Shown: one piece after another, positions 303 through 38,741 of the stretch
How positions within the stretch are numbered: position 1 is the stretch's first letter
How the letters are laid out: the number at the start of each line of letters is the position of its first letter
Virus record (IMG/VR): IMGVR_UViG_3300047388_000137
Coordinates: 1-46,066 of that record
Direction: 5' to 3' (one strand)
DNA from: a virus
DNA length: 46,066 nucleotides
The notes under the pieces: model-generated
Database searches by the model: none
Told to the model about the DNA's origin: nothing
The model's input: the letters and a program-made list of their open reading frames with translations, nothing else
Position numbers and translations under genes: made by a program

Positions 303-869
303 TTAGGCCCTCGTGATTCTGATGTAGGCGGGCATGTACCCGACCGTGCCCGAAACACCAGCGCCAACGCTCGGCGTGCCCGTCGTACCCGACACGACCG
401 CCGTGATGGAATAAGTATGTGAACCCGCAGATGGCGTAAAGCGCCGCCGTGTGAACGCCGGGACAGCCAGGTTCGCGGCAGTCGGGGGGACTACCGCGCC
501 CATCCGGCCAATCTGCGTGGCCCCCTCAAACAGGCTGACGATCAAGTAACCGCCCGCCACCGCCGGAGAAGTCAACGCAGGCGAGAAGAACTCAACAACC
601 ACAGGCGAGGAGCCATCCGCCGTGAAAGCGGGCGCGGTCACGATCAACGTCCCTGTCGCCTCCGTCGTTGACACGACGTTTACCGTGGCGGTGATCTCCG
701 CGTAAGCCAACTCGTAGCCAGGCGCGAGAGTGCCCGCTGGGCGCGCGACAAGGAGGGTGTTGATGTCGTCCATCGCCCCGTTGAAGCCGAGACCGGACGG
801 TGCGTCAACGGACGTATTGTATTTCCTGATCCCGAGCGAAGTAGGTGCTCCGGTGGCGTCAGTCGGAAT
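303..869 (-). CDS. Small beta-rich virion protein, probable ATT start
   Basis: The frame opens after a TGA at 873-875 and has no ATG, GTG or TTG before codon 33 (ATG at 773). The upstream codons read as ordinary protein (IPTDATGAPTSLGIRKYNTS). They begin with ATT exactly 6 nt after GGAGG, inside a ten-base SD (AAGGAGGTGA, 873-882). I therefore place the start at ATT 869, giving 188 aa; an ATG start would give 156 aa. The product is rich in Thr, Val and Ala with alternating beta pattern, like small tail or fibre-associated proteins. It follows the tail-side gene at 887-1384 closely. Function is not recognised. Confidence 0.7.
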   Translation of the reverse strand: MPTDATGAPTSLGIRKYNTSVDAPSGLGFNGAMDDINTLLVARPAGTLAPGYELAYAEITATVNVVSTTEATGTLIVTAPAFTADGSSPVVVEFFSPALTSPAVAGGYLIVSLFEGATQIGRMGAVVPPTAANLAVPAFTRRRFTPSAGSHTYSITAVVSGTTGTPSVGAGVSGTVGYMPAYIRITRA

Positions 870-882
870 GACTCACCTCCTT
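870..882 (-). promoter_or_regulatory. Very strong Shine-Dalgarno that decides an ATT start
   Basis: AAGGAGGTGA on the minus strand matches the 16S anti-SD at every base. It ends just before GTC-ATT-CCG. The GGAGG core is 6 nt from ATT 869 and about 100 nt from the first ATG in frame, so it can only serve the ATT (or GTC) codon. Confidence 0.7.
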
Positions 883-886
883 CTGC

Positions 887-1384
887 CTATGCGGCCTTGA
901 ACTGGATGCCGTCGAGAGAGACGAGCACGTTGCTCGACGGTGACTGTGGGATGACGAGACCGGCCGACGTGATGTCGACGATCCCGAACGCGCCGTTGGA
1001 GACGACCGAGTGGCGCGACGTGGAGGACGGGCGATGCCCCGGCGGCAGCACGAAGGCTGCCAGCCCGAGCGTGCCGCTCTTGACTGCCCCGCGGAGACGC
1101 TCCCAGCCGTCCGCGCTGCGCGTGTACGCAGCGGGGAAGTACGGAGCACCGCCGTTCACCCACGCGTTTGCGTACCCGGCCTGACCGGATGCGCCGACCA
1201 CGTTGATGTTCAGGAAGCGGCTGAGGATGATCGAGCCCTGGACGGTGAGCGTCCCGGCCACGATCAGGTCGTCGACCGTCAGACCCCCGAGGTGGTCGGG
1301 GGCATAGACGTTGATCGCCTCCCGAATCGTCCTCTGAAGGTCGGAGGAGGACATGCCCCCGATGGTGTCAGCGGGCTGCGGCAC
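887..1384 (-). CDS. Tail-associated / receptor-side protein
   Basis: This 165 aa protein starts at a GTG that shares a base with the TAG of the upstream nozzle gene (TAGTG arrangement). An N-terminal helix (SSDLQRTIREAINVY) leads into a shoulder-like segment (LTVDDLIVAGTLTVQGSI) of the type seen in trimeric phage fibre and spike proteins. A beta-rich C-terminal domain follows. Position after the adaptor and nozzle genes supports a tail tip or receptor-binding accessory role. This is inference from order and composition; no catalytic motif is visible. Confidence 0.7.
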   Translation of the reverse strand: MPQPADTIGGMSSSDLQRTIREAINVYAPDHLGGLTVDDLIVAGTLTVQGSIILSRFLNINVVGASGQAGYANAWVNGGAPYFPAAYTRSADGWERLRGAVKSGTLGLAAFVLPPGHRPSSTSRHSVVSNGAFGIVDITSAGLVIPQSPSSNVLVSLDGIQFKAA

Positions 1385-3789
1385 TAGAGCCGCCCGGCGC
1401 GCTGGAGCTTGTACCCCAGTTGAAACGGCCCGATCTGCATTCGCGTCACGGACGCCGAGTTCTGGTACAGGCGGAACGCCATGTACTGGTTCTTCTTCTG
1501 GAAGCGCACGCGCTTCGGCACGAACACGGACTGCACGACGGCAGACCATGTTGCGAACTGCGCCTTCAGCGCGTCCCATGTACCGATCTGTCCGCGGAGC
1601 GTGTCCCAGGTGAAGCCGGAGACAGGGAAGTTCCCCGTCAGCGTCTGCCCGATGTCGTTGAGTCCGAGCACCACGTCGACCTTCATCAGGTCGCCCTGCG
1701 CGAGGTACCAGACCATGAGCAGCTTGAACCGCTTGAGCCGGAGTCCGTCACCCGCGTCGTACTTCTTGGACTCGACGTAGAAGTCCGGCCCGGCCGCGGC
1801 AGAGCCGTCACAGACAATCGAGTCGACGCCCTCCTGATTGAAGAGCGCCTCGCCGTCGCAGATGATCGCTTTCGACGAGTCGTTGACTAGGTACCACATT
1901 GTGCGCCCAGCCGAGCCGGGGATGCTCGCCGAGCCGCGGATGTCCAGGTTCGTGAACGTGGTCACCGCACGCGAGATCATGTTGATCGCGATGGTGTACT
2001 TCGTCGGGGTCGTGGAGACGTTCCCCTTTACGACGGCCACTGTCGGTGCGATGCTCTCGATGAAGAGCATGTAGTGGTCGCGGTCGACCATCGACCACAT
2101 GCGGTACTTGGTCGGGTCGAACGTGCGCATGGTGTTGCGCCAGTAGTCGCCCAGCTTCGCGGCGGTCAGGTTCTGTGCCTGGATCCCGTCGTAGAAGTGG
2201 ATGCCCTCGCGCCCCGCCCAGATGACACCGCCCGCGTATGCCTGAATCGAGCCGCCGCTGATCGCGCCGTCGTCTTCGAGCTTGCGCACGTTGAAGCTGG
2301 AGGGGGAGGAGCCGCCGACGATGAACGTCTCGGTCTCCTTGAACATGAGCAGCCCGTTGTAGGCAGCCTGTGCGCCGCGGATCGGCTCGTTCACGTTCGA
2401 GGTGGAGACCACGTCGATCCAGTCGCCGTCGAAGTCGCTCATGTCGATGATCTCGGGGTCGGCCGTGTCGGAGAACCAGCCGCGCGAGGTCTTCGCGAAG
2501 TCCGCGCCGTTGTTGAAGTACCACTGCCGGTCTGCGTAGTTGGCCGAGATGAACCCGACCTTCTGCGTCGTGCCAGTGGTGATGAGGGAGAAGTTCGCAT
2601 CGGCGCGCACCGCGACGTATGCCTCGTCGGCGAGCGAGATCGCGGCGTTCGCGAGCAGGGTGAGCCCGACTTCGGACTGCACGCTGAGCACGGTTCCGAT
2701 CCACGTCATGTCGCTCGCGCGGTAGAGATCCCACGGCACCTTGAAGGTGAGCGCGACCGAGCCCGGCGAGCCAGTCGAGACGACCGTCAGCGTGACCTGC
2801 GTCGAGCTGTCGACGGAGAGGATGCGCGCGGCGGCACCGATGTTCGTGCCGGTTACGGGCATCCCCTTGGTCAGTCCGGTGGTCGAGCTGATGCCGGTGA
2901 TGACGGCGCTCGCGTTGGTCGGCGTACCGTTCAGCACGGTGCCCGCGTCGAGCTTCTGCGAGCGGAACTTAGTCGAGCCCCCGGTCACGGTCGCGGCGGC
3001 CACGTCCGTGGTCAGGTGACCCTTGGCGACCTTCGGGGCGAGCCCGCGGAGGGACTGGAAGGTGCCGGTGCGCGCGGTGATCGTGTAGCCGGACACGGCG
3101 ACGAGCGTGAGGCTCGTGTTCGAGTCGACCGACTTGACCACGCCGATGTACGCCTGCGTGTACGGGTCGTCCGTGTCGGCGAACAGGAACATGCCTGTGT
3201 CGACGCCCGCGGTGAAGCCAGTGCCGGTGACCGTGGTCGATCCGCGCGTGCCGGTGACCGTGATGGTCGCGTTCGCCTTCGTGCCGCCGTACCACAGGCC
3301 AAGCGCCTGGTTCGGAGCTGCGGCGTCGTAGGCCGAGGAGACCCCAATCCACGCACCCCCGCGCATGGCGGGCTTCGCGTCGATCAGCCGGTAGCTCGCG
3401 CCACCGCCGGGGTTGGTCGGCAGCGGGTGCGGCCACGCGAGGTCGACGGTCGTGGAGAGGGTCGAGTCGTACACGGTCAGGTAGCCGTTCGAGTTGTCGC
3501 CGGTCAGGACGCCGAAGCGCGACGCGCCCGTGGGGTTGAGCGCGGCGATGAGAGCGGAGCCCTTGCGCGGGAGCACGGCGAGCCCGGACACGGCGACGAC
3601 CGGGCCCCTGCGCCGGGTGAGGCCGGGCCGGTCGACCAGAACGTCCTGGAGGTAGCGGGCCTCGGTGTCGTCAATCTCTTGCGCCGGGAGGGCGAGGTTC
3701 ATGCCGCCGGGCATACCGTCGAACGTCTGCGTGGTGAGCCCGGAGGCCGGGATGATGCTGATGCCGGGGATGCCCGAGGAGGAAGCCAT
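1384..3789 (-). CDS. Tail nozzle / hub-like structural protein (801 aa)
   Basis: A long structural protein directly downstream of the putative adaptor, the position of the tail nozzle in T7-like and P22-like podoviruses. The N-terminus is Gly- and Pro-rich, followed by propeller-like beta repeats. Residues about 170-340 contain repeated Thr, Val and Gly-rich segments (such as GTRGSTTVTGTGFTAG and TGLTKGMPVTGTNIG) that look like two inserted Ig-like domains. The middle part has motifs typical of phage hub proteins: DRQWYFNNG, FKETETFIVGG, GVIWAGREGIHFYDG. The start is the ATG at 3789 after CCGGAAAGGGGG. The nozzle assignment rests on context and fold-like pattern. Confidence 0.75.
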   Translation of the reverse strand: MASSSGIPGISIIPASGLTTQTFDGMPGGMNLALPAQEIDDTEARYLQDVLVDRPGLTRRRGPVVAVSGLAVLPRKGSALIAALNPTGASRFGVLTGDNSNGYLTVYDSTLSTTVDLAWPHPLPTNPGGGASYRLIDAKPAMRGGAWIGVSSAYDAAAPNQALGLWYGGTKANATITVTGTRGSTTVTGTGFTAGVDTGMFLFADTDDPYTQAYIGVVKSVDSNTSLTLVAVSGYTITARTGTFQSLRGLAPKVAKGHLTTDVAAATVTGGSTKFRSQKLDAGTVLNGTPTNASAVITGISSTTGLTKGMPVTGTNIGAAARILSVDSSTQVTLTVVSTGSPGSVALTFKVPWDLYRASDMTWIGTVLSVQSEVGLTLLANAAISLADEAYVAVRADANFSLITTGTTQKVGFISANYADRQWYFNNGADFAKTSRGWFSDTADPEIIDMSDFDGDWIDVVSTSNVNEPIRGAQAAYNGLLMFKETETFIVGGSSPSSFNVRKLEDDGAISGGSIQAYAGGVIWAGREGIHFYDGIQAQNLTAAKLGDYWRNTMRTFDPTKYRMWSMVDRDHYMLFIESIAPTVAVVKGNVSTTPTKYTIAINMISRAVTTFTNLDIRGSASIPGSAGRTMWYLVNDSSKAIICDGEALFNQEGVDSIVCDGSAAAGPDFYVESKKYDAGDGLRLKRFKLLMVWYLAQGDLMKVDVVLGLNDIGQTLTGNFPVSGFTWDTLRGQIGTWDALKAQFATWSAVVQSVFVPKRVRFQKKNQYMAFRLYQNSASVTRMQIGPFQLGYKLQRAGRL

Positions 3790-5647: not shown

Positions 5648-6040
5648 TCAGAACTTGCTCACGTACTCAGCGGCAGCCATCAGACGCTCGGGACTGTGTT
5701 TCAACAGTCCGATGCCGAGGTTGCAGGAGTTGCAGAGCAGGCCGCGCCCACGTTGACCGAAGGGTCGGTCGTCGGTGTGGTCGATGACCAAGCCGTTCAG
5801 TCCGTCGAATGGGTCGAGTTCTGACTGACAGATCTCGCAACGACCTTCCGCGCGGGTTGCGATGCGCTCGTACTCCTCGTGAGTGACCCCGCGGCTGCGA
5901 AGCCGGTGGTCGAGCGCGTGCGTGCGGTACGTCGCCGAGCGACAGACCTTGCAGTGAGTCTGGAGTCCGTCGTAACGGCTCCTGTTGTTGCCGAAATCAG
6001 CGCGCGACTTCGCGACGCCGCACCGGGCGCAGGTCTTCAG
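5648..6040 (-). CDS. Free-standing HNH (Endo VII-like) endonuclease, CTG start
   Basis: 130 aa. An N-terminal zinc knuckle (CARC ... CKVC) is followed by a recombination endonuclease VII-type core: RCEICQSEL, then LVIDHTDD, then GRGLLCNSCNLGIGLL and a C-terminal helix. Such genes in phage intergenic spaces are usually homing endonucleases. The frame opens at 6082 and holds no ATG, GTG or TTG before the catalytic core. A CTG at 6040 lies 6 nt after AGGAGG (6047-6052), so I use it. The gene sits alone between the capsid gene and the 145 aa gene with hairpins on both sides, as expected for an inserted mobile gene. Confidence 0.75.
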   Translation of the reverse strand: MKTCARCGVAKSRADFGNNRSRYDGLQTHCKVCRSATYRTHALDHRLRSRGVTHEEYERIATRAEGRCEICQSELDPFDGLNGLVIDHTDDRPFGQRGRGLLCNSCNLGIGLLKHSPERLMAAAEYVSKF

Positions 6041-6068
6041 AGAAACCCTCCTGACAGGGTGAGTAGAA

Positions 6069-6099
6069 GAGGGGCTGGAGGTTCAGGCTCCAGCCCCTC
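6069..6099 (-). terminator. Hairpin between capsid gene and Endo VII-like gene
   Basis: A perfect 12 bp inverted repeat, GAGGGGCTGGAG / CTCCAGCCCCTC, with a 7 nt loop lies 21 nt after the capsid stop. The run after it on the minus strand is only moderately U-rich (TTCTACTC), so this may be a leaky terminator or a 3'-end stabilising hairpin. Confidence 0.5.
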
Positions 6100-7405: not shown

Positions 7406-8326
7406 CTAGGGCAGGAGCTTCGCGGCGGCCATCGCAGCCTTGTGAGCTGCGTCGAGGTCACCACCGAAGTCCATGCCGCGCGAAAGACCGGGCACTGCCG
7501 CCGGAAGCGGAGCCAGTGCAGGGTTGTTCTGCGCTGCGCCCTTGCCGTTCAGGACTCGTGTGAGATGTGCCGAGGTGATCTCCGCGTAGGCGTTCGCACC
7601 GGCAACAAGGTCTCCACCGAAGTACGCGGCGAGCTTGTAGCTGCCGTCGATGTCCTCCTGCGTCCAGGTCGGATTCTGCTCCTTGATGAGCTGCTCTTCC
7701 TGGTTGAGCCGTGCGATGATCTGCCCTGCGCGAATCTCGTTCTGTCGTACCTCGGCCTCGCTCGCGGCCTGCTGCTCGAAGGATGCGAGCCGGGCCTCAA
7801 GAGCCTGAATGCGCTGCTCCTCGGGATCGAGAGAGGACAAGTCCTCCCCGCCAGCCAGTGTCTCCTGGACGTGTGTGGTTGCTGCCGCGGTGGCTTCCGC
7901 CTGCGTCAGTCCTTGCGCCCTGAGAGCGTCGGTCAGCTCCGAGTGGAACTGCACGATCTGCTGAGGATCCTGAAGTGCTGCGTACAACTCGGCCGAGTTC
8001 CTGAGTCCGTCTACGTCAAGGCCGGTTTCTTCGGCCAGCTTCCGATACGGGGCGGCTTCCTGCATCTTGCGCGTGTAGTCCGCCTGCATCGAGTCGTAGA
8101 ACGGCCGGGCTTCGGCCGGGATGGTGCTGGGATCAAGTCGCGTAAAGCTGTCTGCCATCTCTTCGACGGAAGTTGCAGCGTCAGCTACCTGCGTCCCTTC
8201 GGGAGTCGCTTCGGTCGGGGTTGCTGTACTCGGCTCGGTCGGTAGCGCCGCGGCGGCCTCTAGGCCACGTTGGTGCATTTCCTCCGGCGTCGGAGTGACA
8301 GTCCCTTCAGTTGCGAGTTCGGACAA
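7406..8326 (-). CDS. Capsid scaffolding protein
   Basis: 306 aa, Ala-, Glu- and Gln-rich and largely helical, immediately upstream of the major capsid gene. A disordered acidic and Thr-rich N-terminus is followed by long coiled-coil-like helices (EEQRIQALEARLASFEQQAA). The basic C-terminal helix (DAAHKAAMAAAKLLP) is the usual coat-binding element of scaffolds. The start is TTG 8326, 6 nt after AGGAG. No protease motif is seen, so scaffold removal would depend on another factor or on exit through pores. Confidence 0.8.
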   Translation of the reverse strand: MSELATEGTVTPTPEEMHQRGLEAAAALPTEPSTATPTEATPEGTQVADAATSVEEMADSFTRLDPSTIPAEARPFYDSMQADYTRKMQEAAPYRKLAEETGLDVDGLRNSAELYAALQDPQQIVQFHSELTDALRAQGLTQAEATAAATTHVQETLAGGEDLSSLDPEEQRIQALEARLASFEQQAASEAEVRQNEIRAGQIIARLNQEEQLIKEQNPTWTQEDIDGSYKLAAYFGGDLVAGANAYAEITSAHLTRVLNGKGAAQNNPALAPLPAAVPGLSRGMDFGGDLDAAHKAAMAAAKLLP

Positions 8327-8335
8327 ATGGTTCTC

Positions 8336-8743
8336 CTAAGTAGTGGGAAGAGTCCCCGGACAGGGTTGCTCTCCGTACTCGACGATCCGATGACAGTTCG
8401 CGCATAGAAGGTCGCACTTAGCGACTTCGGCGCGAATCGACTCACGACTGCGGCCGAGGCACTTGGTGCTCAGCGCGAACTTCTTAGTCGAGGGATCGCG
8501 GTGGTGAAAATCAAGAACATGGGGCGGATACGTTCCACCGCACTTCTCGCACGACCGTGACTTGAACGTCGTGTTGAGCCATTCCGCGTCATTGACGTGC
8601 CGCTCCCGGCGCTTGCTGTTGAGCAGTGCTCGGTTAGCGTCGCGGTACTCGTGCTGGTACTGATTGCGGAGCGCGCGAACAGCGGGATCCGCTTGGTAGG
8701 CGCGCTGATACTCGCGGCGCGCCTCTGGATCTTTGTGTGGAAC
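8336..8743 (-). CDS. Free-standing HNH endonuclease with no canonical start
   Basis: An open frame of 135 codons. A basic helical N-terminus (ARREYQRAYQADPAVRALRN) leads to a zinc-bound HNH core: CEKCG, LDFHHRDPSTKKF, CDLLCANCHRIVEY. The family is the common phage HNH homing endonuclease. The frame opens after a TAG at 8753-8755 and contains no ATG, GTG or TTG ahead of the core. The codon 5 nt after AGGAGG is GTT (8743), given here as provisional start. The SD itself lies in an 11 bp stem (8750-8787). It could be weakly expressed, or a start-damaged remnant. It lies between the HTH and scaffold genes. Confidence 0.65.
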   Translation of the reverse strand, partial: VPHKDPEARREYQRAYQADPAVRALRNQYQHEYRDANRALLNSKRRERHVNDAEWLNTTFKSRSCEKCGGTYPPHVLDFHHRDPSTKKFALSTKCLGRSRESIRAEVAKCDLLCANCHRIVEYGEQPCPGTLPTT

Positions 8744-8749
8744 GTGACC

Positions 8750-8796
8750 CTCCTAGACAGGGTGTCGCCCGCGGGTCTGTCTAGGAGCCTGCGGGC
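8750..8796 (-). promoter_or_regulatory. Interleaved hairpins (possible pseudoknot) masking an HNH SD
   Basis: A perfect 11 bp inverted repeat, CTCCTAGACAG (8750-8760) with CTGTCTAGGAG (8777-8787), pairs the SD of the HNH gene with the stop region of the preceding gene. A second repeat, GCCCGC (8767-8772) with GCGGGC (8791-8796), starts in the first loop and closes outside it. The two can form a pseudoknot or alternate. SD masking is known for phage homing endonuclease genes such as I-TevI. Confidence 0.55.
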
Positions 8797-9302: not shown

Positions 9303-11669
9303 CTACTTCCGTGGAGGAGCGCTCTTACCGAGCTGCTCCGTCCGCTTCTGCGCCAGTGTGATGTCCGCCGCGGTCTTCGCGACGTGCATCTGGTGCTGCT
9401 CTTCTGCGTGCTGCATCGACTGAAGCTGCTCGGCGTCGTCCAGCGGGTTGTTACCCGCCGCCTGAACCTGCGGATCAGCCGTGTCACTCGTGACCCATGT
9501 CTCCAGAGGCGGCTGCGCAAGGTTCTGCGCGTTCGCTTCGGGGACACCGCCGCGGAAGAGGATCTGCGACGCGGTCTCCGGGTCGACCGTACCCTTGAGC
9601 TGCATGGTGGTGCGCACAGCTTGCGGGTCGGGCCTACTCGGCAGTGACAGCATGACGTGAAGTGTTGACTCCCAGTGGTCGATGAACCGTTCCTGGGCGT
9701 CCGGTGGTAGTGCCTCGAACTCGACGCTCTTCATGTACAGCGCGTGCGTGTCGAGGTGCGTCTGGTAGTTCTCGAACGAGAGAGGCTTGAGCGCCGCGTT
9801 CTGCACGATCTGCTGCGGGTTGTCCTGCGGCCCCAGCGGCTGGCCCGTCTCCGGGTTCATGCCCTGATCGAGTGCCTCGATGGCATCGTGCATCGCCTCG
9901 GGGTTGATCGGATCGCCCTTCGTCAGCTTGTCGTGCTCGCGGTACGCCTGCTCTTCGTCGGCAGCGAAGATCGCTGCGAGTCCCTTGAGGTCGGCCACGT
10001 CGAGGTGCTTCCACGCCTGGTCGGCGCGCATCACACCCATCTGAATGAGCGACTCGATCCGCGCCTGCCGTCCCGCGCGTGTGCGAGGCAGGCCTGAGCC
10101 CGCCTCCGCGTAGAACCCGAAGCCGCCGTCGATGTCGCTGCCGAGGAACCGTTTGGCTTTCGTCGTACCGCCGGGGCCGATGATCTTCATAAGCCGGGGC
10201 TCAGTGTAGAGCTTCTGCGCCAGCCGGACCAAGAGGTCGCCCGCGCGTGCGAGCGCGTCCTCCATCGCCCCGATGACGGGGGAGATCTGGTCGACCGATG
10301 CCTCCTGGAGGAGGTCGATGGCGATGCCAGCCTCGACGTTCGGCGGGACATCGCCCCGCGTCACGGCCTGGAGGTTGAACAGCCGGTCGAGCCGACCCTG
10401 GATGCCGTCCATGTGCTGGAAGACGTAGGCCGGTAGCCCCGGCATCTCGCGCCACTGAGGCACGACGTTGCCGATGGGCATGAACTCGATGATCGCGCCG
10501 GGCTCGTCGGTGATGCGTTGCGAGAGTGACCCCTGCGCCGCGAGGAGTTGCGGCTTGAGCGTCAGGTTCTTGTGCATCACGACCTGCGAGATGGTGCGAT
10601 TAAGCTCCTTCTGGAGCGGCCGGGCGTGCGTCACGACGGCCTCGTCAGTGACGGAGCCGGGGACGCGCGGGCCGGGGAACTTCACGAACGGCATGTCGTG
10701 CGTCGGGAACGGCCACGGCCCATCGAAGAGGATGAGCGCGGGGTCTTCGGCGAACACGACGTAGCGGCCGTTCGGCAGCATCGCGGTCGGGGGGAAGTAG
10801 CCGACGAAGATCTCGACCACGTCCTTCTCGCCGCTGGAGGAGCCCGAGCCGAGACCGAGGACGCCGTCGGGGATCTCCCAGGCGTCCATCGTGGTCGTGG
10901 CGTTCAGGTCCTTGCCGTAGCGCATCTTGACTTCGTCCGGCGTCATCGGGTGCTTGCACACGATGGCCTTCGAGTCAGAGAACGACTGCGCGGCGTCGAG
11001 CACGAACAGCGAGTCGGGCGGAATCACGTCGACACGTACGTCGCCCATGTAGACCGTCTTCTCGTACTGCCGCGGATCTTGGCCCTCTTGGGTCAGCTCG
11101 TCGCGGTAGATGTCGGCGAGTATCTGGTCGTTGATCGGCTGCCCGTCGGGACCTACGAGGAAGGTCATCGACTTGCCCGCGAACGGATCCCAGGAGATCT
11201 TCCAGTACCCGGCCGACCCGAGGATCGACCAGAGAAGGGCCTCCTGGAGCTTCGCCTTCAGGTGCAGGTCACGCCACCAGGACTCGTAGAGCTGCTCGGC
11301 CATCTGCGCCGCGCGGATGTCGCGCTCAGCGCCGGAGTCGGGCGTCGCGGAGATGACCGGCTTGGTCTTGGTCATCATCGCGAGCAGCCCCTGCACGCCG
11401 GGCAGGATCTGGTTCGAGGTGAGGCGCACGCGGTAGCGCGGCCCGTCGCCCTGATCGGGCTGCGGGACGGACTGCACCTGGCCGCTGTAACGGTTGAACC
11501 AGACCCACTGGTTGCCGCGGTAGAACGCCATGTTGAGCTTCCAGTCGCGCTCCTGCTTGACCCGCGCGTTGCGGATCTGCTGGACCTTCGAGACGAGCGA
11601 CTTGGCGTCGGTCAGCTTCGAGATGCGGCTGAGGTCGGGCGCTGCGTTCGTGGGGGCGGTGTCCGCCAA
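9303..11669 (-). CDS. Portal protein
   Basis: 788 aa, TTG start after GGGAGG. The N-terminus (ERDWKLNMAFYRGNQWVWF) and the SNQILPGVQGLLAMMTKTKP segment are characteristic of podovirus portals. The following wing and stem region includes WWRDLHLKAKLQEALLWSIL. The C-terminal 150 residues are Gln-rich and helical, suggesting a barrel extending into the capsid as in P22-like portals; the length (about 790 aa) is in the large portal range. The gene lies downstream of the terminase and upstream of scaffold and capsid. Confidence 0.85.
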   Translation of the reverse strand: MADTAPTNAAPDLSRISKLTDAKSLVSKVQQIRNARVKQERDWKLNMAFYRGNQWVWFNRYSGQVQSVPQPDQGDGPRYRVRLTSNQILPGVQGLLAMMTKTKPVISATPDSGAERDIRAAQMAEQLYESWWRDLHLKAKLQEALLWSILGSAGYWKISWDPFAGKSMTFLVGPDGQPINDQILADIYRDELTQEGQDPRQYEKTVYMGDVRVDVIPPDSLFVLDAAQSFSDSKAIVCKHPMTPDEVKMRYGKDLNATTTMDAWEIPDGVLGLGSGSSSGEKDVVEIFVGYFPPTAMLPNGRYVVFAEDPALILFDGPWPFPTHDMPFVKFPGPRVPGSVTDEAVVTHARPLQKELNRTISQVVMHKNLTLKPQLLAAQGSLSQRITDEPGAIIEFMPIGNVVPQWREMPGLPAYVFQHMDGIQGRLDRLFNLQAVTRGDVPPNVEAGIAIDLLQEASVDQISPVIGAMEDALARAGDLLVRLAQKLYTEPRLMKIIGPGGTTKAKRFLGSDIDGGFGFYAEAGSGLPRTRAGRQARIESLIQMGVMRADQAWKHLDVADLKGLAAIFAADEEQAYREHDKLTKGDPINPEAMHDAIEALDQGMNPETGQPLGPQDNPQQIVQNAALKPLSFENYQTHLDTHALYMKSVEFEALPPDAQERFIDHWESTLHVMLSLPSRPDPQAVRTTMQLKGTVDPETASQILFRGGVPEANAQNLAQPPLETWVTSDTADPQVQAAGNNPLDDAEQLQSMQHAEEQHQMHVAKTAADITLAQKRTEQLGKSAPPRK

Positions 11670-13436: not shown

Positions 13437-14927
13437 TTAGTAGAACTCGCCAAGCTCTGGATCGAACCGCGCGGTGCCTCTGCGGCCAATGTCGTCGAGC
13501 GCTCTGAGTTCACGAGCCGCGGCCTCTTGAAGGTCACGCGGCGGACGGTTTTCTGCCTCGGCGTCGAGGTGTTGCTGCACGGTGGGAAGCAGGACGCCAG
13601 CGAGACCAAGTGCGATCTCCACTGCGTCGAGCATGTCGTCGCGGATCGACTTCTTGGTCGAGTCCCACGACACCCACTGGTCGATGAAGTCGCGCTCGAA
13701 GCGCGAGATGCGGATGCGGCCTGTGCGGAAGAACGGGGCCATCGCCATGATGCGCTGCTCCTTCTTCCCCTTCGAGAAGATGGGCACGATGTTCGGCATC
13801 CCCGGCAGACGCATCGACTGCTGCACGAGGGCCGCCTGGTAGGCGACGGACTCGATGCCGATGTACATGGGCCGGTAGAGCGCGTTCCACTCGCCGATCA
13901 GCTCGACCTGCTCCGGGAACGGAACGTGGCCGCGGAAGGTCTTGAGCAGGTACGCCTGAGTGTTGTCCTCGGTGACGCCGATGATCGCCATAGCGAAGTC
14001 GTCCGCGGTGTCGCGGATAGAAATGGCGGGGTCGACGGCCATGAACTTGCGAAGCGCGATCTGGGGGTCGAGCCGGATGTCGTCCGGCGACTGGAGCGGA
14101 GTGGCCTTGCCCGTGACGTAGTAGTGCAGCCAGTCGGACTGAAGCTCGATGCCTGCGAGAGCGTCGAAGCTCGCGAGGTACTCCTGCTTGAACAGGAACG
14201 GGTGCGTGTGCGCGCGTTCGTAGTCCCAGATCTGCTTCGGGAAGTGGGGGTTGTCGAGCGACGTGTACTCGACGCGGAACTGCTGAGCGTCCGCTTTCGC
14301 AGCGTCGCCCCAGAACTCGTCGTAGAGCCAGTTGCGGCCGAACGGCGTGGTCGTCGTAACGAGACGGCCGATCTTGTCACCGAGCGCCGGACGGATCGTG
14401 TCCCAGGCTTCGGAGTTCGGGAGGAACGCTGCTTCGTCGATCCACAGGAGGTCGAGTCCTGGGCCACGAAGGCTCTGCGGGTCGTCCGCTGACCGGAACT
14501 CGACGAGCGTCCCGTCAGGGAACTCGATGATCTTCTCGGTCTTGTTGTATTCGTAGTCGCGGCCCTTGACGAGCCCGATCTTGCGCAGCACGGAGAGGAA
14601 CGTGAGCAGTGCCGGGCGTCCGACCTTGTGGTCTTTCGCCAGCACCCAGATCCACAACGGATCGCTCTTGTCCTCCCCGTGCGCGTCGAGGTGGAACTGG
14701 TTGGGGTGGATCGCGTAGAACGCGGTCTCCCATGCGGCCGACAACGTCTTGCCGCCACGCCGCCCCGCCACGAGGTGACGGAACCGGGTCAGTTCGTCCG
14801 CCGTGTCCGCAGCTCCGTGGAACAGGATCTGGTAGGCGTGCGGGAGGTAGCCCTTCTGGGCGAACCAGAGGAACTTCACCGGGAAGGCGTCGACCGCCTT
14901 CACGATGTGAGGCTGGACGGCGTCCAT
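13437..14927 (-). CDS. terL: Terminase large subunit
   Basis: 496 aa. The ATPase domain has Walker A VAGRRGGKT (about 53-61) and Walker B LLWIDEAA (about 160-167), followed by the coupling TTTTPFG segment (about 191-197). The C-terminal nuclease has the acidic set D299 (MAVDPAIS), E359 (IGIESVAYQ) and D434 (RDDMLDAVEIA), the RNase H-like arrangement of large terminases. It packages DNA into the procapsid through the portal encoded downstream. The ATG at 14927 follows CCGCCAGGGA, a minus-strand relative of the early-region start motif. Confidence 0.92.
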   Translation of the reverse strand: MDAVQPHIVKAVDAFPVKFLWFAQKGYLPHAYQILFHGAADTADELTRFRHLVAGRRGGKTLSAAWETAFYAIHPNQFHLDAHGEDKSDPLWIWVLAKDHKVGRPALLTFLSVLRKIGLVKGRDYEYNKTEKIIEFPDGTLVEFRSADDPQSLRGPGLDLLWIDEAAFLPNSEAWDTIRPALGDKIGRLVTTTTPFGRNWLYDEFWGDAAKADAQQFRVEYTSLDNPHFPKQIWDYERAHTHPFLFKQEYLASFDALAGIELQSDWLHYYVTGKATPLQSPDDIRLDPQIALRKFMAVDPAISIRDTADDFAMAIIGVTEDNTQAYLLKTFRGHVPFPEQVELIGEWNALYRPMYIGIESVAYQAALVQQSMRLPGMPNIVPIFSKGKKEQRIMAMAPFFRTGRIRISRFERDFIDQWVSWDSTKKSIRDDMLDAVEIALGLAGVLLPTVQQHLDAEAENRPPRDLQEAAARELRALDDIGRRGTARFDPELGEFY

Positions 14928-14938
14928 TCCCTGGCGGG
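14928..14938 (-). promoter_or_regulatory. CCGCCAG start-associated sequence before terL
   Basis: CCGCCAGGGA directly precedes the terL ATG. It is the only late-gene copy I see of the CCGCCAGAGAGGA sequence found before early genes. Confidence 0.4.
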
Positions 14939-14956
14939 AGTGGAAGCCAGGCAGAG

Positions 14957-15942: not shown

Positions 15943-16209
15943 AGGTAGATGGGGGATCGTCCGCGCTTGACAGCAGGGCTTCAAGGCTCCCGAAGGAACC
16001 GGCCCCGCCGCCTACGGACTCACTGCCGTCATTCGCTCGTCGCCGAATCTCGAACCCATCCGGGCAGGATGTTCCGGGCGCAGTTCCGCGTCGAATCCCA
16101 TTCGATGGGCGCGGTGCCGCTCCGGCATCCAATCGCAGTTGTCTACGAACCTTCCGAGCACGAGCATGGTGGGCTGATAGCGAACTAGACATGCCGACGA
16201 TCCCCCAAG
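15943..16209. other. Gap between tRNA-Asn and first late gene
   Basis: No convincing gene. A minus-strand frame from ATG 16192 runs 123 codons to 15821 (Arg-, Ser- and Gly-rich, no SD, overlapping the zinc-ribbon gene in another frame). It could be a poorly conserved protein but has little support. No second tRNA could be folded from the sequence. Confidence 0.4.
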
Positions 16210-16282
16210 CTGTGGAGGCTGGGCTCGAACCAGCGCGCTCCCGGTTAACAGCCGGGCGCTCTTCCAACTGAGCTACTCCACA
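16210..16282 (-). tRNA. tRNA-Asn (anticodon GTT)
   Basis: Read on the minus strand it folds as a complete cloverleaf. The acceptor TGTGGAG/CTCCACA has 7 perfect pairs. The D arm is AGCTCAGTTGGAAGAGC, the anticodon arm is CCCGG-CTGTTAA-CCGGG, and the T arm has GGTTCGAGCC. The anticodon is GTT, reading AAC/AAT. The discriminator is G and CCA is not encoded. It lies first in the leftward late transcript. Confidence 0.93.
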
Positions 16283-24112: not shown

Positions 24113-24162
24113 AGGGTACCGGCCCTTCCGCCTGGTGGCGGGGGCCGTAAGTCAAGCTGTGC

Positions 24163-24193
24163 TTTACAAAATCCAGCCGTTTCCGACTATACC
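24163..24193 (+). promoter_or_regulatory. Possible promoter before the sigma-like gene
   Basis: TTTACA (24163-24168) and TATACC (24188-24193), or ACTATA at 24186 with a 17 nt spacer, lie in a locally AT-rich stretch. With this -10 the transcript would begin close to ATG 24195, so the mRNA would be nearly leaderless. Confidence 0.3.
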
Positions 24194-24194
24194 T

Positions 24195-24704
24195 ATGGAG
24201 GGACAAATCGCCGATCACTTTGAGCAGCTCTGGACGAACACTCGCCCCGAGCTTCTCCGCTACTACGAACGCCGCCTGCCGAACCCGGCGGAAGCTGAGG
24301 ACGCAGTCCAGAGCCTCTTCGAGCAGCTCCTGAAGGTGCGGGGGGAGATCACTTCCCCGCTCGCCCTGATCCGCACGATGGCCGCACGCCTCCTCGCCGA
24401 CGCATACGACGCGCAGCGCGTGGCCCCCGAGCCGCTGAGCTACGAGAAGCTCATCGGCCTCGACGGCACAGGCCTCGATCACCTCCCGCAGTTCCAGACC
24501 GCGAGCTTCGACGACCTGATGTTCGACGGAGCGCACGACACCGCCGTGCGCGACCTCGCCGACGATCTCCGCGACGCCTACATCTTGGGCGAGCTTCGCG
24601 GGCTTCCTTCGCGTGAGTCCGGGCAAGTGCTCGGGGTCTCGCACGTCACCGCCGCTACCCGCCGGGAGCTGGCGACCACTGTCATTCGAGAGGAGATTGC
24701 GTGA
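24195..24704 (+). CDS. Sigma-70-family (ECF-like) sigma factor
   Basis: 169 aa from ATG 24195. Region 2-like N-terminus: TRPELLRYYERRLPNPAEAE, DAVQSLFEQLLKV and ALIRTMAARLLADAY. A linker follows. The C-terminal region 4-like HTH is ILGELRGLPSRESGQVLGVS then HVTAATRRELATT. This two-domain layout is that of ECF sigma factors, which redirect host RNA polymerase. Region 2 is divergent, so it may be weak or act as an anti-host factor. GGAGGGACAA occurs just inside the frame before ATC 24207, so a start there cannot be excluded. It is the first gene of the replication block. Confidence 0.7.
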   Translation: MEGQIADHFEQLWTNTRPELLRYYERRLPNPAEAEDAVQSLFEQLLKVRGEITSPLALIRTMAARLLADAYDAQRVAPEPLSYEKLIGLDGTGLDHLPQFQTASFDDLMFDGAHDTAVRDLADDLRDAYILGELRGLPSRESGQVLGVSHVTAATRRELATTVIREEIA

Positions 24705-27443: not shown

Positions 27444-28586
27444 TTGCGCATCCGCGAGTTCTGCTGGGACTCGTGGGCGAAGTGGGCGTTCGAGCGTTGG
27501 GCCGTTGACCTACCGACGGCCATCGCCGTCGACACTGAGACCACGGGGCTCGGCTTCCACGACGTGGCGTTCTGCGCCACGCTCACCTGGCGGCGTCCGA
27601 ACGGTGACCTCCAGAGTGCGTACATCGAGCTGGACGACGCTGACTGTCGCCCCATCGCGGGCGCGGGGATGCCCCCAGCAGGTGACCCCGAGAACCGGCG
27701 CGCCCTACTGAGGGCGATCCTCCACGGCACGGAGACCTGGGTGTTCTGGAATGCGAAGTTCGACCTCGCGCGCCTCGACTACCTCGGCATCCTGCCCCCG
27801 CTCGACGGGCACATCATCGAGGACGGTCAGCCCATCGCCGCGCTCATCAACGAGAACCGGCGCATGAAGCTGAAGGTCCGCGCCGTCGAGGATCTCGGCT
27901 TCGTGAACACGATCCAGGTTCAGGTGCAGTCCGGCCCGCGTAAGGGCGAGTGGGACGCGAAAGCGAAAGAGGAGCACCTCCTCGGCAAGCTGCGCACGAA
28001 GCTGAAGCTGACCAAGGAGGACGGCTACCACCTGATCCCCCGCGAGGCGATGATCCCGTACGCGCTCACCGACACCGAGCTGACGCTCCGCTGGTGGGAG
28101 AAGCACGCGCCGCTGCTGCCGGAAGATCTCATCCCCGTCTACGACGAGGAGATCGAGGTCGCGCACATCCTGCGCAAGATGGAGGGCAACGGCGTCGGCA
28201 TCGACGTGCCATACCTGACCGAGGCTGAGGACGAGTGGGGCGCGAAGGTGATGACCACCTGGCAGACGTTGGTTGGCCTGATCGGTCGGGATGACTTCAA
28301 CCCCAACTCGCCGAAGCAGCTCCTCGCCGCGTTCAAGACGGCGGGCGTGACGCTGGAGTCAACCGACAAGGCGCACCTCCGCGACATGGTCGCGAACAGG
28401 GCCTCCCCCAAGGAGGCCGTCCAGATCGCCCTCGCTCTGCGTGAGTATCGCGACGCGGAGAAGGTACATGGCACGTACTTGACTTCGCTGCTCGCGGATC
28501 AACGCGACTCGATTGCGCACCCGTGGCTGAACCCAGTCGGCCCCCGTACGGGGCGCATGTCCTCCTCCGTGGCGACGAACGATTAG
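27444..28586 (+). CDS. polA: DNA polymerase A, N-terminal part (exonuclease, palm start)
   Basis: 380 aa, TTG 27444. The 3'-5' exonuclease motifs are intact: Exo I AVDTETTG (D30, E32), Exo II VFWNAKFDLARL, Exo III YALTDTELTL. The thumb and start of the palm follow, ending at TGRMSSSVATND then TAG. Family A polymerases continue this RxSS motif with ..NxQNLP, which is found 955 nt downstream (29542). So this is the 5' part of one polymerase gene interrupted by an insert. It is either spliced or works as a separate subunit. Confidence 0.85.
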   Translation: MRIREFCWDSWAKWAFERWAVDLPTAIAVDTETTGLGFHDVAFCATLTWRRPNGDLQSAYIELDDADCRPIAGAGMPPAGDPENRRALLRAILHGTETWVFWNAKFDLARLDYLGILPPLDGHIIEDGQPIAALINENRRMKLKVRAVEDLGFVNTIQVQVQSGPRKGEWDAKAKEEHLLGKLRTKLKLTKEDGYHLIPREAMIPYALTDTELTLRWWEKHAPLLPEDLIPVYDEEIEVAHILRKMEGNGVGIDVPYLTEAEDEWGAKVMTTWQTLVGLIGRDDFNPNSPKQLLAAFKTAGVTLESTDKAHLRDMVANRASPKEAVQIALALREYRDAEKVHGTYLTSLLADQRDSIAHPWLNPVGPRTGRMSSSVATND

Positions 28587-28932
28587 GAAGCTGACCGAGG
28601 CCCATCGCCGGGCCTATCAGCGCGCCTACCACTCGGCGAACAAGGAGAAGTTCTGGGAGCGGAATCTCCGCGTCAAGTACGGCATCACGCCCCCGGACTA
28701 CTACCGGATGCTCGAAGAGCAGGACGGTGCGTGCGCGATCTGCTTGTCGACGGAGGACTCCTACGGGCGCTCGAAGTTCAGCGTCGACCACGACCATGAG
28801 ACCGGCGCTGTCCGCGGACTGCTGTGTACGCACTGCAACCGCGCCATCGGAATGTTCCGCGACAACGGGGAGCACCTCCAGCGTGCGGCCGACTACATCA
28901 ACTCAGGAGGCGGATGCGTTACGTCCAAATAG
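28582..28932 (+). CDS. HNH (Endo VII-like) homing endonuclease inside polA
   Basis: The open frame covers a helical N-terminus (HRRAYQRAYHSANKEKFWER), NLRVKYGITPPDYYRMLEEQ, then DGACAICL, VDHDHETG and VRGLLCTHCNRAIGMF: a full Endo VII-type nuclease. The first ATG (28708) would remove the N-terminal half. Upstream only ATT 28582, overlapping the polA TAG (ATTAG), or CTG 28591 is available. Neither has a good SD. I give ATT as provisional start (116 aa). Probably the mobility enzyme of the insert. Confidence 0.7.
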   Translation: MRKLTEAHRRAYQRAYHSANKEKFWERNLRVKYGITPPDYYRMLEEQDGACAICLSTEDSYGRSKFSVDHDHETGAVRGLLCTHCNRAIGMFRDNGEHLQRAADYINSGGGCVTSK

Positions 28933-29541
28933 TCCTGACGGACAGCCAGGCCGCACTGCTCGCGACGGGGCTGCCATACCTCACCGATCTGAACGATGAC
29001 CCCGTCGAGTGCGAGCAGATCAAAGCGCTCGCACAGTTCTTCTCAGCGGTCGCATCGAACCCGCTCGCGTTCCCCGTGCGGACACAGGCGATGGCGCGCT
29101 CGATCAAGAAGCGCGCGAAGCGTCTCCGAGCCGGTAGGTAGCTCTGAGCGACATAGAGCTGGCCTGGGCCGCTGGGTTCTTCGACGGCGAAGGCTGCGTG
29201 AGCATCTCACGCACCAAGCACAAGAACGGGCGCGAGTATCACCAACTCAAGGTAAAGGTTGGTCAGCGCGACCCACGCCCCCTCGAACGGCTCGTCGCGA
29301 TGTTCGGCGGAAACTCAAGGACTAACGGACGCGGGGTTGCGCTGTGGGAGGTCTCGTCCAGCGGCGCAGCCGCGATGCTGACGGCGTTGCTTCCGTACCT
29401 GCTCAACAAGCGCGAGCAGGCCGAGGTCGCACTCACATTCCAAGCTCGGAGAAACACCGGGCGCGGCAGGCTCGCCGTCCAGGATCGTGAACAGGACGCA
29501 GCCGACTTCGAGACCGTCAAGCGCCTAAAGCACGTGTATTG
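28584..29541 (+). mobile_element. Insert splitting polA: intron or homing-gene cluster
   Basis: About 955 nt separate GAT (last polA codon) from AACTGGCAAAATCTG. The exon ends in T and the insert can end in TTG just before AAC, as group I introns require (U at the 5' site, G at the 3' end). Splicing there would restore SSSVATND-NWQNLPG. It carries an Endo VII-like HNH gene, a 75 aa gene and a LAGLIDADG gene. I could not trace a full group I core by eye. Confidence 0.6.
28914..29141 (+). CDS. Small hypothetical protein within the polA insert (75 aa)
   Basis: ATG 28914, 3 nt after GGAGGCGG and overlapping the HNH stop by 19 nt. MRYVQIVLTDSQAALLATGL is a strand-helix start; the C-terminus is a basic helix (MARSIKKRAKRLRAGR). 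Unlike its neighbours it has no nuclease motif. It could be a passenger gene or a maturase-like helper. Confidence 0.6.
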   Translation: MRYVQIVLTDSQAALLATGLPYLTDLNDDPVECEQIKALAQFFSAVASNPLAFPVRTQAMARSIKKRAKRLRAGR

Positions 29542-29542
29542 A
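29144..29542 (+). CDS. LAGLIDADG homing endonuclease, CTG start
   Basis: 132 aa single-motif LAGLIDADG protein. ELAWAAGFFDGEGCVSIS is the LAGLIDADG helix with its catalytic acid, followed by LKVKVGQRDPRPLERLVAMF and a second alpha/beta half. One motif implies a homodimer. The frame opens after a TAG at 29135 and offers only CTG 29144, 5 nt after GGTAGG. It shares 32 identical bases with the copy at 34515. Its TGA overlaps the TTG of the downstream polA part. Confidence 0.8.
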   Translation: MSDIELAWAAGFFDGEGCVSISRTKHKNGREYHQLKVKVGQRDPRPLERLVAMFGGNSRTNGRGVALWEVSSSGAAAMLTALLPYLLNKREQAEVALTFQARRNTGRGRLAVQDREQDAADFETVKRLKHVY

Positions 29543-30327
29543 ACTGGCAAAATCTGCCCGGAGATCTGGTCGTTGTTCGCCGGGCCATCACTCCGAAGCA
29601 CCCTGAATGGGTGCTGCACGACTTCGACTTTTCCAAGATAGAGCCGCGCCTCCTCGCCTACTTCGCATCGAAGCGCGGGGACGATTCACTGGCCGGGTAC
29701 ATCCGCGACGGCCGCGACCCATACAAGGCGGTCGTGTCGCGGGTCTACGGAAAGACCGAGGCCGAACTCACCGACGCGGAATACAAACGCGGAAAAATCC
29801 TGTTCCTCTCGCTCATGTATGGCGGGGGGATCAAGACCATCCGCGAGCAGTTCGGCGTCGAGCACAAAGAGGCCAAGCGTCTCATCAACCAGTTTCACGA
29901 CGCATGGCCCATCGTGCGGCACTTGCAGGACGATCTCGTGCGCGTCGCCGAGAGGCGCGGGTACGTGCGCACACCGTGGGGTCGGCATCTTCACATGGAA
30001 GAGTTCGGATCCCACAAAATGTTGAACAAGCTCGTCCAGGGTAGTGCGGCGCACGCCTTGAAGCGTGCGCTGATCCGTGTCGACCGCTGGCTGGTCGAGA
30101 ACCCGCAGCTCCAGTCCCACATGATCCTGACGATCCACGACTCCATCGACTTCGACGGCCCTGCCGACGAGGCCGAGATTCTGCACGAGAACGTGCCCGG
30201 CCTGATGGTCGACGAGCCGCTGATCCAGGCGGTCGTTCCGCTCCTGGTCGAGCACGAGATCTCGCCACACAACTGGGCGGAACATCTGCCCTACGACGAA
30301 TGGAAGGAGAGCCTTGCCCAAGTGTAA
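29539..30327 (+). CDS. polA: DNA polymerase A, C-terminal part (palm/fingers)
   Basis: 262 aa from TTG 29539 (TTGA overlap with the LAGLIDADG stop), if translated alone. NWQNLPG continues the broken RxSS motif. Motif A is DFSKIEPR (D30, E35); motif B is KRGKILFLSLMYGGG (K86, Y94); motif C is ILTIHDSID (H200, D201). All polymerase catalytic residues lie here, with the exonuclease upstream. No SD precedes TTG, which favours splicing or coupling. Confidence 0.85.
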   Translation: MNWQNLPGDLVVVRRAITPKHPEWVLHDFDFSKIEPRLLAYFASKRGDDSLAGYIRDGRDPYKAVVSRVYGKTEAELTDAEYKRGKILFLSLMYGGGIKTIREQFGVEHKEAKRLINQFHDAWPIVRHLQDDLVRVAERRGYVRTPWGRHLHMEEFGSHKMLNKLVQGSAAHALKRALIRVDRWLVENPQLQSHMILTIHDSIDFDGPADEAEILHENVPGLMVDEPLIQAVVPLLVEHEISPHNWAEHLPYDEWKESLAQV

Positions 30328-35248: not shown

Positions 35249-35584
35249 GTGACGAGGGACATGAACGGCGAGGTCGCGGGCTACCGCGATCTCGTCGAGT
35301 CCCTCGCGCGCAAGTTTGTCGGGCGCAACGGCGCGGAGCTTGACGACCTGGTGCAAGAGGGTCTTGTGAATGTGTGGCAGACGCTGGAGCGGGGGATCCA
35401 ACCCAGCGCGCAGATCATCGAGGATCGCATGAGGAACTGGACGAAGCTGATGGGCTCGCAGACCGGCCGGTCGCTGATCGAGGACGCGAACGGGAATCTC
35501 GTGAGCTACGAGACGCTTCTCCCGCTCGACGACTTCCAGCACCTGTCCTACGAGCCCGTCATCGAAGTGGATGCCCTCAGCTAG
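35249..35584 (+). CDS. Sigma factor region 2 protein (split sigma, part 1)
   Basis: 111 aa from GTG 35249 (ATG 35261 is an alternative). YRDLVESLARKFVGRNGAEL, DDLVQEGLVNVWQTLERGI and SAQIIEDRMRNWTKLMG match sigma-70 region 2, which binds the RNA polymerase clamp helices and melts the -10. Region 4 is missing here and appears as the next gene. The last 14 nt overlap that gene in a different frame. Together they look like the SigO/RsoA-style two-subunit sigma. Confidence 0.7.
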   Translation: MTRDMNGEVAGYRDLVESLARKFVGRNGAELDDLVQEGLVNVWQTLERGIQPSAQIIEDRMRNWTKLMGSQTGRSLIEDANGNLVSYETLLPLDDFQHLSYEPVIEVDALS

Positions 35585-35867
35585 GAGCTGGGGTAGCTAC
35601 GACGAAGCTGAAGTCCAAGCGCTGATCGACCACTACTGGAGCTTGCAGTTCCTGAAGCACCGGCCCGTCATCCACGTCCGCCTAATGGACCTGGAGGTGG
35701 CGCTGCGTCACCTTCCGCGCAAGCTCCACGAGGTGATGATCGTGTACGGGCTCCTTCGGTTCACGTCGCGCGCCGCGGGTGAAGCGCTCTCGATCTCGGA
35801 GAGTGCGGTGCGCAAACGCTACCGCCAGGGACTAGACCTAATGCTCTACCGAATGAACGGAGACTGA
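35571..35867 (+). CDS. Sigma factor region 4-like protein (split sigma, part 2)
   Basis: 98 aa, ATG 35571 within the end of part 1, +1 frame. VRLMDLEVALRHLPRKLHEV, MIVYGLLRFTSRAAGEALSI and SESAVRKRYRQGLDLMLY form the sigma region 4 helix-turn-helix that reads the -35. It likely pairs with part 1 on host polymerase to transcribe late or middle genes. A frameshifted fusion is possible; the overlap has no obvious slippery run. Confidence 0.7.
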   Translation: MPSARSWGSYDEAEVQALIDHYWSLQFLKHRPVIHVRLMDLEVALRHLPRKLHEVMIVYGLLRFTSRAAGEALSISESAVRKRYRQGLDLMLYRMNGD

Positions 35868-37874: not shown

Positions 37875-38702
37875 TCAGATCGGGTCGTCCGCGTAGAGCT
37901 TCAGCACCGCGCGCTGGATAAGCTGCAAGCTCGTCTTGTCGTAGAAGCGGCCCATCACGGTCTGCTCCTCCCAGCCGAGCATCTTCTTCACGAGGCGCTC
38001 CTCTACCCCGTTGTCGAGCAGGCTCGACGTGACCGTGCGCCGGAACCAGTGAGCGGTGAACCCCGGCGCGAAGCCGCGGAGGTCATCGATCCAGGTGTCG
38101 TAGGCCACTCGGCAGGTGCCGCGCGTCGTGACGACGTACGTTTCCGGCGAATCGGCCAGCTCGAACAGCACCTCCCCGAGCACGGGGTGGATCGGCACGT
38201 ACCGCGTGCGGTCGCCCTTCCCCCGCTCGACATGCAGCGACCCGGCGGCGAGGTCGACGTTCGACCAGCGCAGCGAGCGGATCTCCCCCTGCCGCATCCC
38301 CGTATAGGTGAGTAGGTGGTACATCAGCCAGCGCCGGTCGCTGTGGATCCGCGCCTTCATCGCGCGCAGCTCCGCGTTCGGGATCGTCTTCGGCTCCTCG
38401 CGCGGAGCGGGGGCGAGGTACACGTCGAGCGTCGGATCCTTGCGGATCATCCCCCGGCGGTGGGCGTAGCGCAGCGCCCCGCCGAGGTGGATCCAGTGCG
38501 TGTGCTTCGTCGTGGCCGCATAGTCGAGCCCGGCGAGGTATTCCTCCAGGTCCCACGGCTCCATGTCCGCAGCCTTCTTGTCGATCAGGTCTAGGTGGTA
38601 CTGGAACTTCTTTGCTGCCTTGTCGAACGCGATCAGGGTGGCGGGCGCGCGCTTCTTGACGGTCTGAAGCCGCGTGCGATATTGCTCCAAGATGATGTCC
38701 AC
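37875..38702 (-). CDS. int: Tyrosine-family integrase
   Basis: 275 aa from GTG 38702, 5 nt after AGGAGG; a TTG at 38741 would add 13 residues but lacks an SD. N-terminal SAM-like core-binding domain, then the catalytic set R137 (TGMRQGE), basic K in GKGDR, H218..R221 (TAHWFRRT), W244 and Y254 (MGRFYDK). It inserts the phage into, and excises it from, the host chromosome. No attP core could be fixed; the adjacent palindrome (38756-38765) is a candidate arm or promoter site. Confidence 0.88.
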   Translation of the reverse strand: MDIILEQYRTRLQTVKKRAPATLIAFDKAAKKFQYHLDLIDKKAADMEPWDLEEYLAGLDYAATTKHTHWIHLGGALRYAHRRGMIRKDPTLDVYLAPAPREEPKTIPNAELRAMKARIHSDRRWLMYHLLTYTGMRQGEIRSLRWSNVDLAAGSLHVERGKGDRTRYVPIHPVLGEVLFELADSPETYVVTTRGTCRVAYDTWIDDLRGFAPGFTAHWFRRTVTSSLLDNGVEERLVKKMLGWEEQTVMGRFYDKTSLQLIQRAVLKLYADDPI

Positions 38703-38741
38703 GGTGTCCTCCTCGGGCGGGTGTGTTAGAGCCTGTGCCAA

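Follow-up and report, generated by a model that had tools for sequence, protein, structure and literature searches.

Comparison with related viruses provides strong grounds for stating that the fibre gene at positions 303 to 869 (minus strand) of the window is translated from an ATT codon at 869 into what is most likely a short tail fibre, and that its near-cognate start is a trait of the lineage. By the window we mean the whole stretch of DNA that was analysed, the 46,066 nt (GC 0.653) of IMG/VR record IMGVR_UViG_3300047388_000137. Judged by its sequences, this lineage of viruses seems exceptionally permissive as to the sites at which ribosomes can start.

The gene consists of 188 codons followed by TAA (305-303) and is backed by homologues at four loci (L001-L004) as well as by synteny. 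Its ATT start (867..869, minus strand) stands behind the Shine-Dalgarno (SD) sequence AAGGAGGTGA (873..882, minus strand), whose GGAGG at 880-876 is followed by 6 nt (TGAGTC) and then ATT. An in-frame TGA (873..875, minus strand) closes the frame upstream and leaves GTC and ATT alone ahead of the conserved protein: the frame reads GTC, ATT, CCG and so on, and its first ATG, GTG or TTG is the ATG at 773. Direct reading thus agrees with the earlier note, which had described a ten-base SD 6 nt before ATT and a frame lacking canonical starts for 33 codons. In DNA rich in GC, such a run of codons taken alone is probably no rarity; what lifts the ATT frame beyond chance is that homologues share the start residue and that codons 2-32 evolve as protein. 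Upstream lies a gene of 165 aa (887..1384, minus strand), with homologues of 163-167 aa in L003 and L004; its likely start, GTG 1384, overlaps the preceding gene's TAG, and its own stop (TAG, 889-887) is found 17 nt upstream of ATT. Next comes the gene of an 801-aa virion protein (1384..3789, minus strand; similarity to phrog_511/3287), on which the tree of the relatives was built.

Fibre homologues were taken from independent IMG/VR viral contigs, and all of those bearing the N-terminal arm (consensus TDATGxPT...GIxKYNTSVDAPSGLGxN) have their start at one and the same aligned residue. At this position ATT is found in the window, G001 and G002 (3300038443_000332 and 3300020080_000827), ATC in two viruses, G003 and G009 (3300013768_000013 and 3300045141_000134), and ATA in G005 and G006, two contigs of one virus (3300021517_000016 and 3300036045_000016); GTG occurs in two homologues (G010, L042), TTG in three (G004, G008, L108) and ATG in the remaining ones (about 13). 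In none of the ATT, ATC or ATA cases does an ATG, GTG or TTG occur after the upstream in-frame stop and ahead of the arm. Between the window and its nearest relative (G001) codons 2-32 show 15 synonymous changes and 1 nonsynonymous change (dN 0.015, dS 1.10), and all homologue pairs point in the same direction of strong purifying selection, which confirms the initial impression that the first 33 codons look like normal protein. Together, the shared aligned start and the selection on codons 2-32 argue that ATT is the start, and neither an error nor part of a 5' extension; initiation at this codon would presumably be with fMet.

An alternative start is offered by the ATG at 773 (771..773, minus strand), the first canonical one of the frame, in which case the preceding 32 codons would be untranslated or a decayed 5' extension. 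We consider this extremely improbable given that codons 2-32 are common to all syntenic relatives and strongly constrained, and that relatives with ATG, GTG or TTG begin at the ATT position; no homologue was found to start at ATG 773. Moreover, the methionine concerned (Met33) is located inside the conserved arm, most of which would be removed by initiation there, and has only GGGG, 2 nt ahead of its codon. As the window is a metagenome contig, it might also be argued that an ATG became ATT through a sequencing or assembly error, yet ATT is seen as well in two contigs from other samples (3300038443 and 3300020080, with 91% arm identity), and ATC or ATA stands at this codon in further contigs, which practically excludes this explanation.

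Recoding is very unlikely too: here translation would start at a GTG at 876 inside the SD (GTG AGT CAT TCC GAC TGA) and shift by +1 at TGAC into the fibre frame. The GTG mini-frame with its TGAC end is indeed present in the window, G001 and G009, but its GTG is without a properly spaced SD and is missing in G003 (ATC) and G005 (ATA), a slippery codon is absent (GAC to ACT), and the TGA is formed by the codons for TD in the arm, which ATG-starting relatives also have. Because the mini-frame is not conserved, this candidate was rejected, as was stop readthrough from the upstream gene, whose TAG, in the window, lies in another frame than the fibre gene. Translation from ATT 869 is the reading followed below.

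The 44-residue N-terminal arm of the fibre protein (codons 2-44, PTDATGAPTSLGIRKYNTSVDAPSGLGFN..., 738..866, minus strand) is conserved in syntenic relatives and under purifying selection, whereas the C-terminal domains are swapped among them; L001 and L002 carry the same head as the window fibre with different N-termini. An AlphaFold2 model (mean pLDDT 76.8) predicts a helix at residues 27-41 and a beta jelly roll at residues 52-188 (306..716, minus strand). This jelly roll is TNF/C1q-like: Foldseek matches include chlamydial Pgp3, the TNF-like lectins PLTL and BC2L-C, C1q-domain phage proteins and tail fibres (best E about 1e-4 for PDB and about 1e-7 for viral models, TM about 0.5). The protein has no Pfam or PHROG match, and homologues of it and of the 801-aa protein were not found among sequenced phages. 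From its predicted fold and synteny, the likeliest role of the protein is that of a short receptor-binding tail fibre, which presumably docks on the tail by its arm. The gene had already been taken for a virion gene, which synteny, domain swapping and the TNF/C1q-like fold all support. An annotation that accepts ATG only would remove the conserved arm, and with it the true N-terminus.

In the 801-aa tree the viruses with ATT (window, G001, G002) and ATC (G003, G009) form one supported clade, within which the ATG pair G007/L010 is nested, while the ATA case (G005) is separate. On this tree the fibre start has switched between canonical and near-cognate codons three times or more. A single substitution would give ATG, and synonymous sites are close to saturated, so a start other than ATG has been tolerated or kept for a long time. 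A gene that passes through ATG, GTG, TTG, ATT, ATC and ATA amounts to a natural experiment on the cost of a start codon, and in this lineage one could test directly whether weak starts persist by tolerance or through selection for dosage.

The ATT start of the fibre gene is not a one-off: near-cognate starts recur across other genes and relatives. We compared the aligned starts of conserved late genes in 16 related contigs and 80 further portal-bearing loci, with starts assigned by alignment and an SD scoring rule that gives modest preference to canonical codons; gene 5140 was excluded from the start counts, and the whole-genome ORF comparison was filtered to drop antisense shadow ORFs. For the terminase large subunit (13437..14954, minus strand; Terminase_6N) the best start in the window is CTG 14954 (context CGGAGGTAACTCTG), with GGAGG at 14964-14960, 5 nt ahead of CTG. 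Its aligned start is likewise CTG in L086 and G005/G006, ATT in G002, TTG in L083, ATG in G008/G015, and ATG or GTG elsewhere. The gene at the scaffold position, between portal and capsid (7406..8326, minus strand), has a TTG start in the window, CTG in G001/G002, L082/L083, G004, G012 and G014, ATT in G003 and G009, ATC in G016, and TTG or ATG in other relatives. In several relatives an ATG or TTG is located about 3 codons downstream of the near-cognate scaffold codon, at a longer SD distance than usual, and there the near-cognate start is likely but not forced. The portal gene (9303..11669, minus strand) starts with TTG in the window and with CTG in G001/G002, and an early SSB-like gene has CTG in G003 and ATA in G004. 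The strongest cases are the fibre gene, the terminase of the window, G002 and L086, and the portal of G001, where no canonical codon exists at or just before the conserved N-terminus.

These starts are concentrated in one part of the portal tree, a clade of 16 rows (clade A, support 99) that contains all near-cognate scaffold cases: 8 of the 15 clade-A scaffold sequences have such a start against 0 of 58 outside (Fisher 4.8e-7). For the terminase the counts are 3/5 and 2/37 (p 0.008), and for the fibre gene alone 4/9 and 1/12 (p 0.12). Near-cognate starts were found in none of 62 sequences of the major capsid gene, nor in a large branch of lower GC (0.43-0.48 in its measured members). Clade A has a GC of 0.56-0.69, mostly above 0.61, and GC may contribute to near-cognate use, but GC pressure does not favour ATT or ATA. 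Separately, the capsid frame of G002 (L049, 7421-8599) is broken or shortened at the 5' end in comparison with the nearly identical G001, possibly due to an assembly error.

The portal of the window belongs to the T7-type family phrog_156 (4.9e-38), identifying the virus as a podophage with a T7-type portal, and terminase and further virion proteins are encoded as well. The nearest cultured relatives by portal are those of the Arthrobacter phage Adat / Microbacterium phage Shocker group (about 26% identity). Unlike the clade of the window, Shocker and its relatives, which served as soil controls, begin terminase, portal, scaffold and capsid at canonical codons wherever the starts can be aligned, without a single near-cognate one. 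A portal search in 84,980 bacterial and archaeal species genomes yielded one contig, from a Dehalococcoidia MAG (L081, JADLBJ010000156.1, 8.5 kb), with a portal that is 46% identical and with homologues of terminase and scaffold; it is possibly a host hint or a mis-binned phage, and too weak for a host call. The window also contains a tRNA-Asn (anticodon GTT; 16209-16282, minus strand) and a tyrosine integrase (37878-38741, minus strand), hinting at a temperate phage.

Several further genes in the window have unusual structures. An HNH-like ORF (8336-8752, minus strand; CEKCG...FHHRDP...CANCHR) is devoid of ATG, GTG and TTG across all of its 138 codons; GGAGGG is found ahead of GTT 8743, and G001 has GTA at a similar place. 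In an endonuclease VII-type gene (5648-6082, minus strand) the domain begins upstream of the first canonical codon (TTG 5791), and CAGGAGGG precedes CTG 6040. A second endonuclease VII-type ORF (28531-28932, plus strand; 2.4e-26) has its first canonical start, ATG 28708, inside the domain. In seven related genomes DNA polymerase A is interrupted near one and the same motif (TGRMSSSVATND / NWQNLPG); in the window its two parts (27444-28586 and 29491-30327, plus strand) have an endonuclease VII-type ORF between them, and the second half shows no consistent start codon. The pattern points to an intron or to a split gene; an Rfam search did not find a known intron. Two weak sigma-factor-like genes (24135-24704 and 35571-35867, plus strand) match region 2 and region 4, and homologues of the former in G003 and G004 have an apparent CTG start behind an SD.

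With regard to mechanism, the strong SD would place the 30S subunit at ATT 869, where the initiator fMet-tRNA could pair at two of the three positions, and ribosomes terminating at the upstream TAG possibly assist. The expected product is fMet followed by the conserved arm (PTDATG...), with the N-terminal peptide PTDATGAPTSLGIR with or without the leading fMet. That a perfect SD may compensate for ATT, as had been proposed, does not hold as a rule: the SD duplex of the window fibre (-16.0 kcal/mol) is the strongest among near-cognate starts, but median pairing is -8.7 kcal/mol for near-cognate (n=19) against -10.7 kcal/mol for canonical starts (n=179; p 0.047), which is the opposite direction. 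In this GC-rich clade of soil podophages, near-cognate codons would replace ATG, GTG or TTG at the fixed start of several non-capsid genes, implying that start-codon identity is weakly constrained or is tuned down for proteins required in small amounts. IF3 normally rejects ATT-type codons (PMC5472188), which leaves a lax host or deliberately low expression as the options; IF3 sensitivity and tuning of the fibre gene would both be expected. No IF3-like product or translation-factor gene was seen among the scanned genes of the window.

Tentatively, then, the clade or its hosts may have loosened start discrimination to the extent that SD placement alone fixes the start and any near-cognate codon (ATT, ATC, ATA, CTG, perhaps GTT/GTA) serves for non-capsid genes, with weak starts keeping scaffold, terminase and fibre at a low dose compared with capsid. 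The absence of such starts in capsid, as opposed to their frequency in the other three, fits dosage tuning without proving it. Coupled reinitiation could be needed instead of de novo initiation: ATT would then work only via termination at the stop of the 165-aa gene, after which a retained 30S subunit accepts the near-cognate codon. Most family members have an upstream stop close before the start, yet the scaffold gene of the window is preceded by an endonuclease-type ORF and a spacer and not by a close conserved stop, so that coupling is not shared by every near-cognate case. The SD is strong and may suffice alone, and reinitiation would modify the ATT start without replacing it; as an exclusive route we deem it rather unlikely.

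Known systems share parts of this pattern. Textbooks treat ATT starts as rarities, and since ATG, GTG or TTG is what gene finders usually expect, phage proteins with other starts are shortened or missed. In phage T4, gene 26* arises from an internal AUU start in a baseplate gene, like the window fibre an AUU start in a structural gene; there, however, it gives a shorter internal product, whereas ATT is here the sole start of a full gene, and lineage-wide. C1q/TNF-like receptor-binding fibres of phages share with the window fibre the jelly-roll head predicted for it, the swappable C-terminal domain and the conserved arm, but no Pfam or PHROG family matches the sequence of the window fibre. One phage annotation has CTG and GTC starts (PMC6389784). 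We found no literature description of a phage lineage with near-cognate starts across several virion genes; as few subscription papers were covered, this is weak evidence, but such use appears undescribed. The closest parallels are infC, which starts with ATT in E. coli and ATC in Streptomyces, and sigR of Streptomyces with GTC, all genuine bacterial genes whose start, as in the window fibre, differs from ATG or GTG in its third base (PMC5472188). These parallels are regulatory genes of hosts for which control by IF3 has been shown, whereas the present ones are phage virion genes; moreover, in the window lineage more than one gene per genome is affected and the codon varies between relatives. 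ATT starts as such were already known from infC, and lineage-wide near-cognate use across virion genes appears to be the new part.
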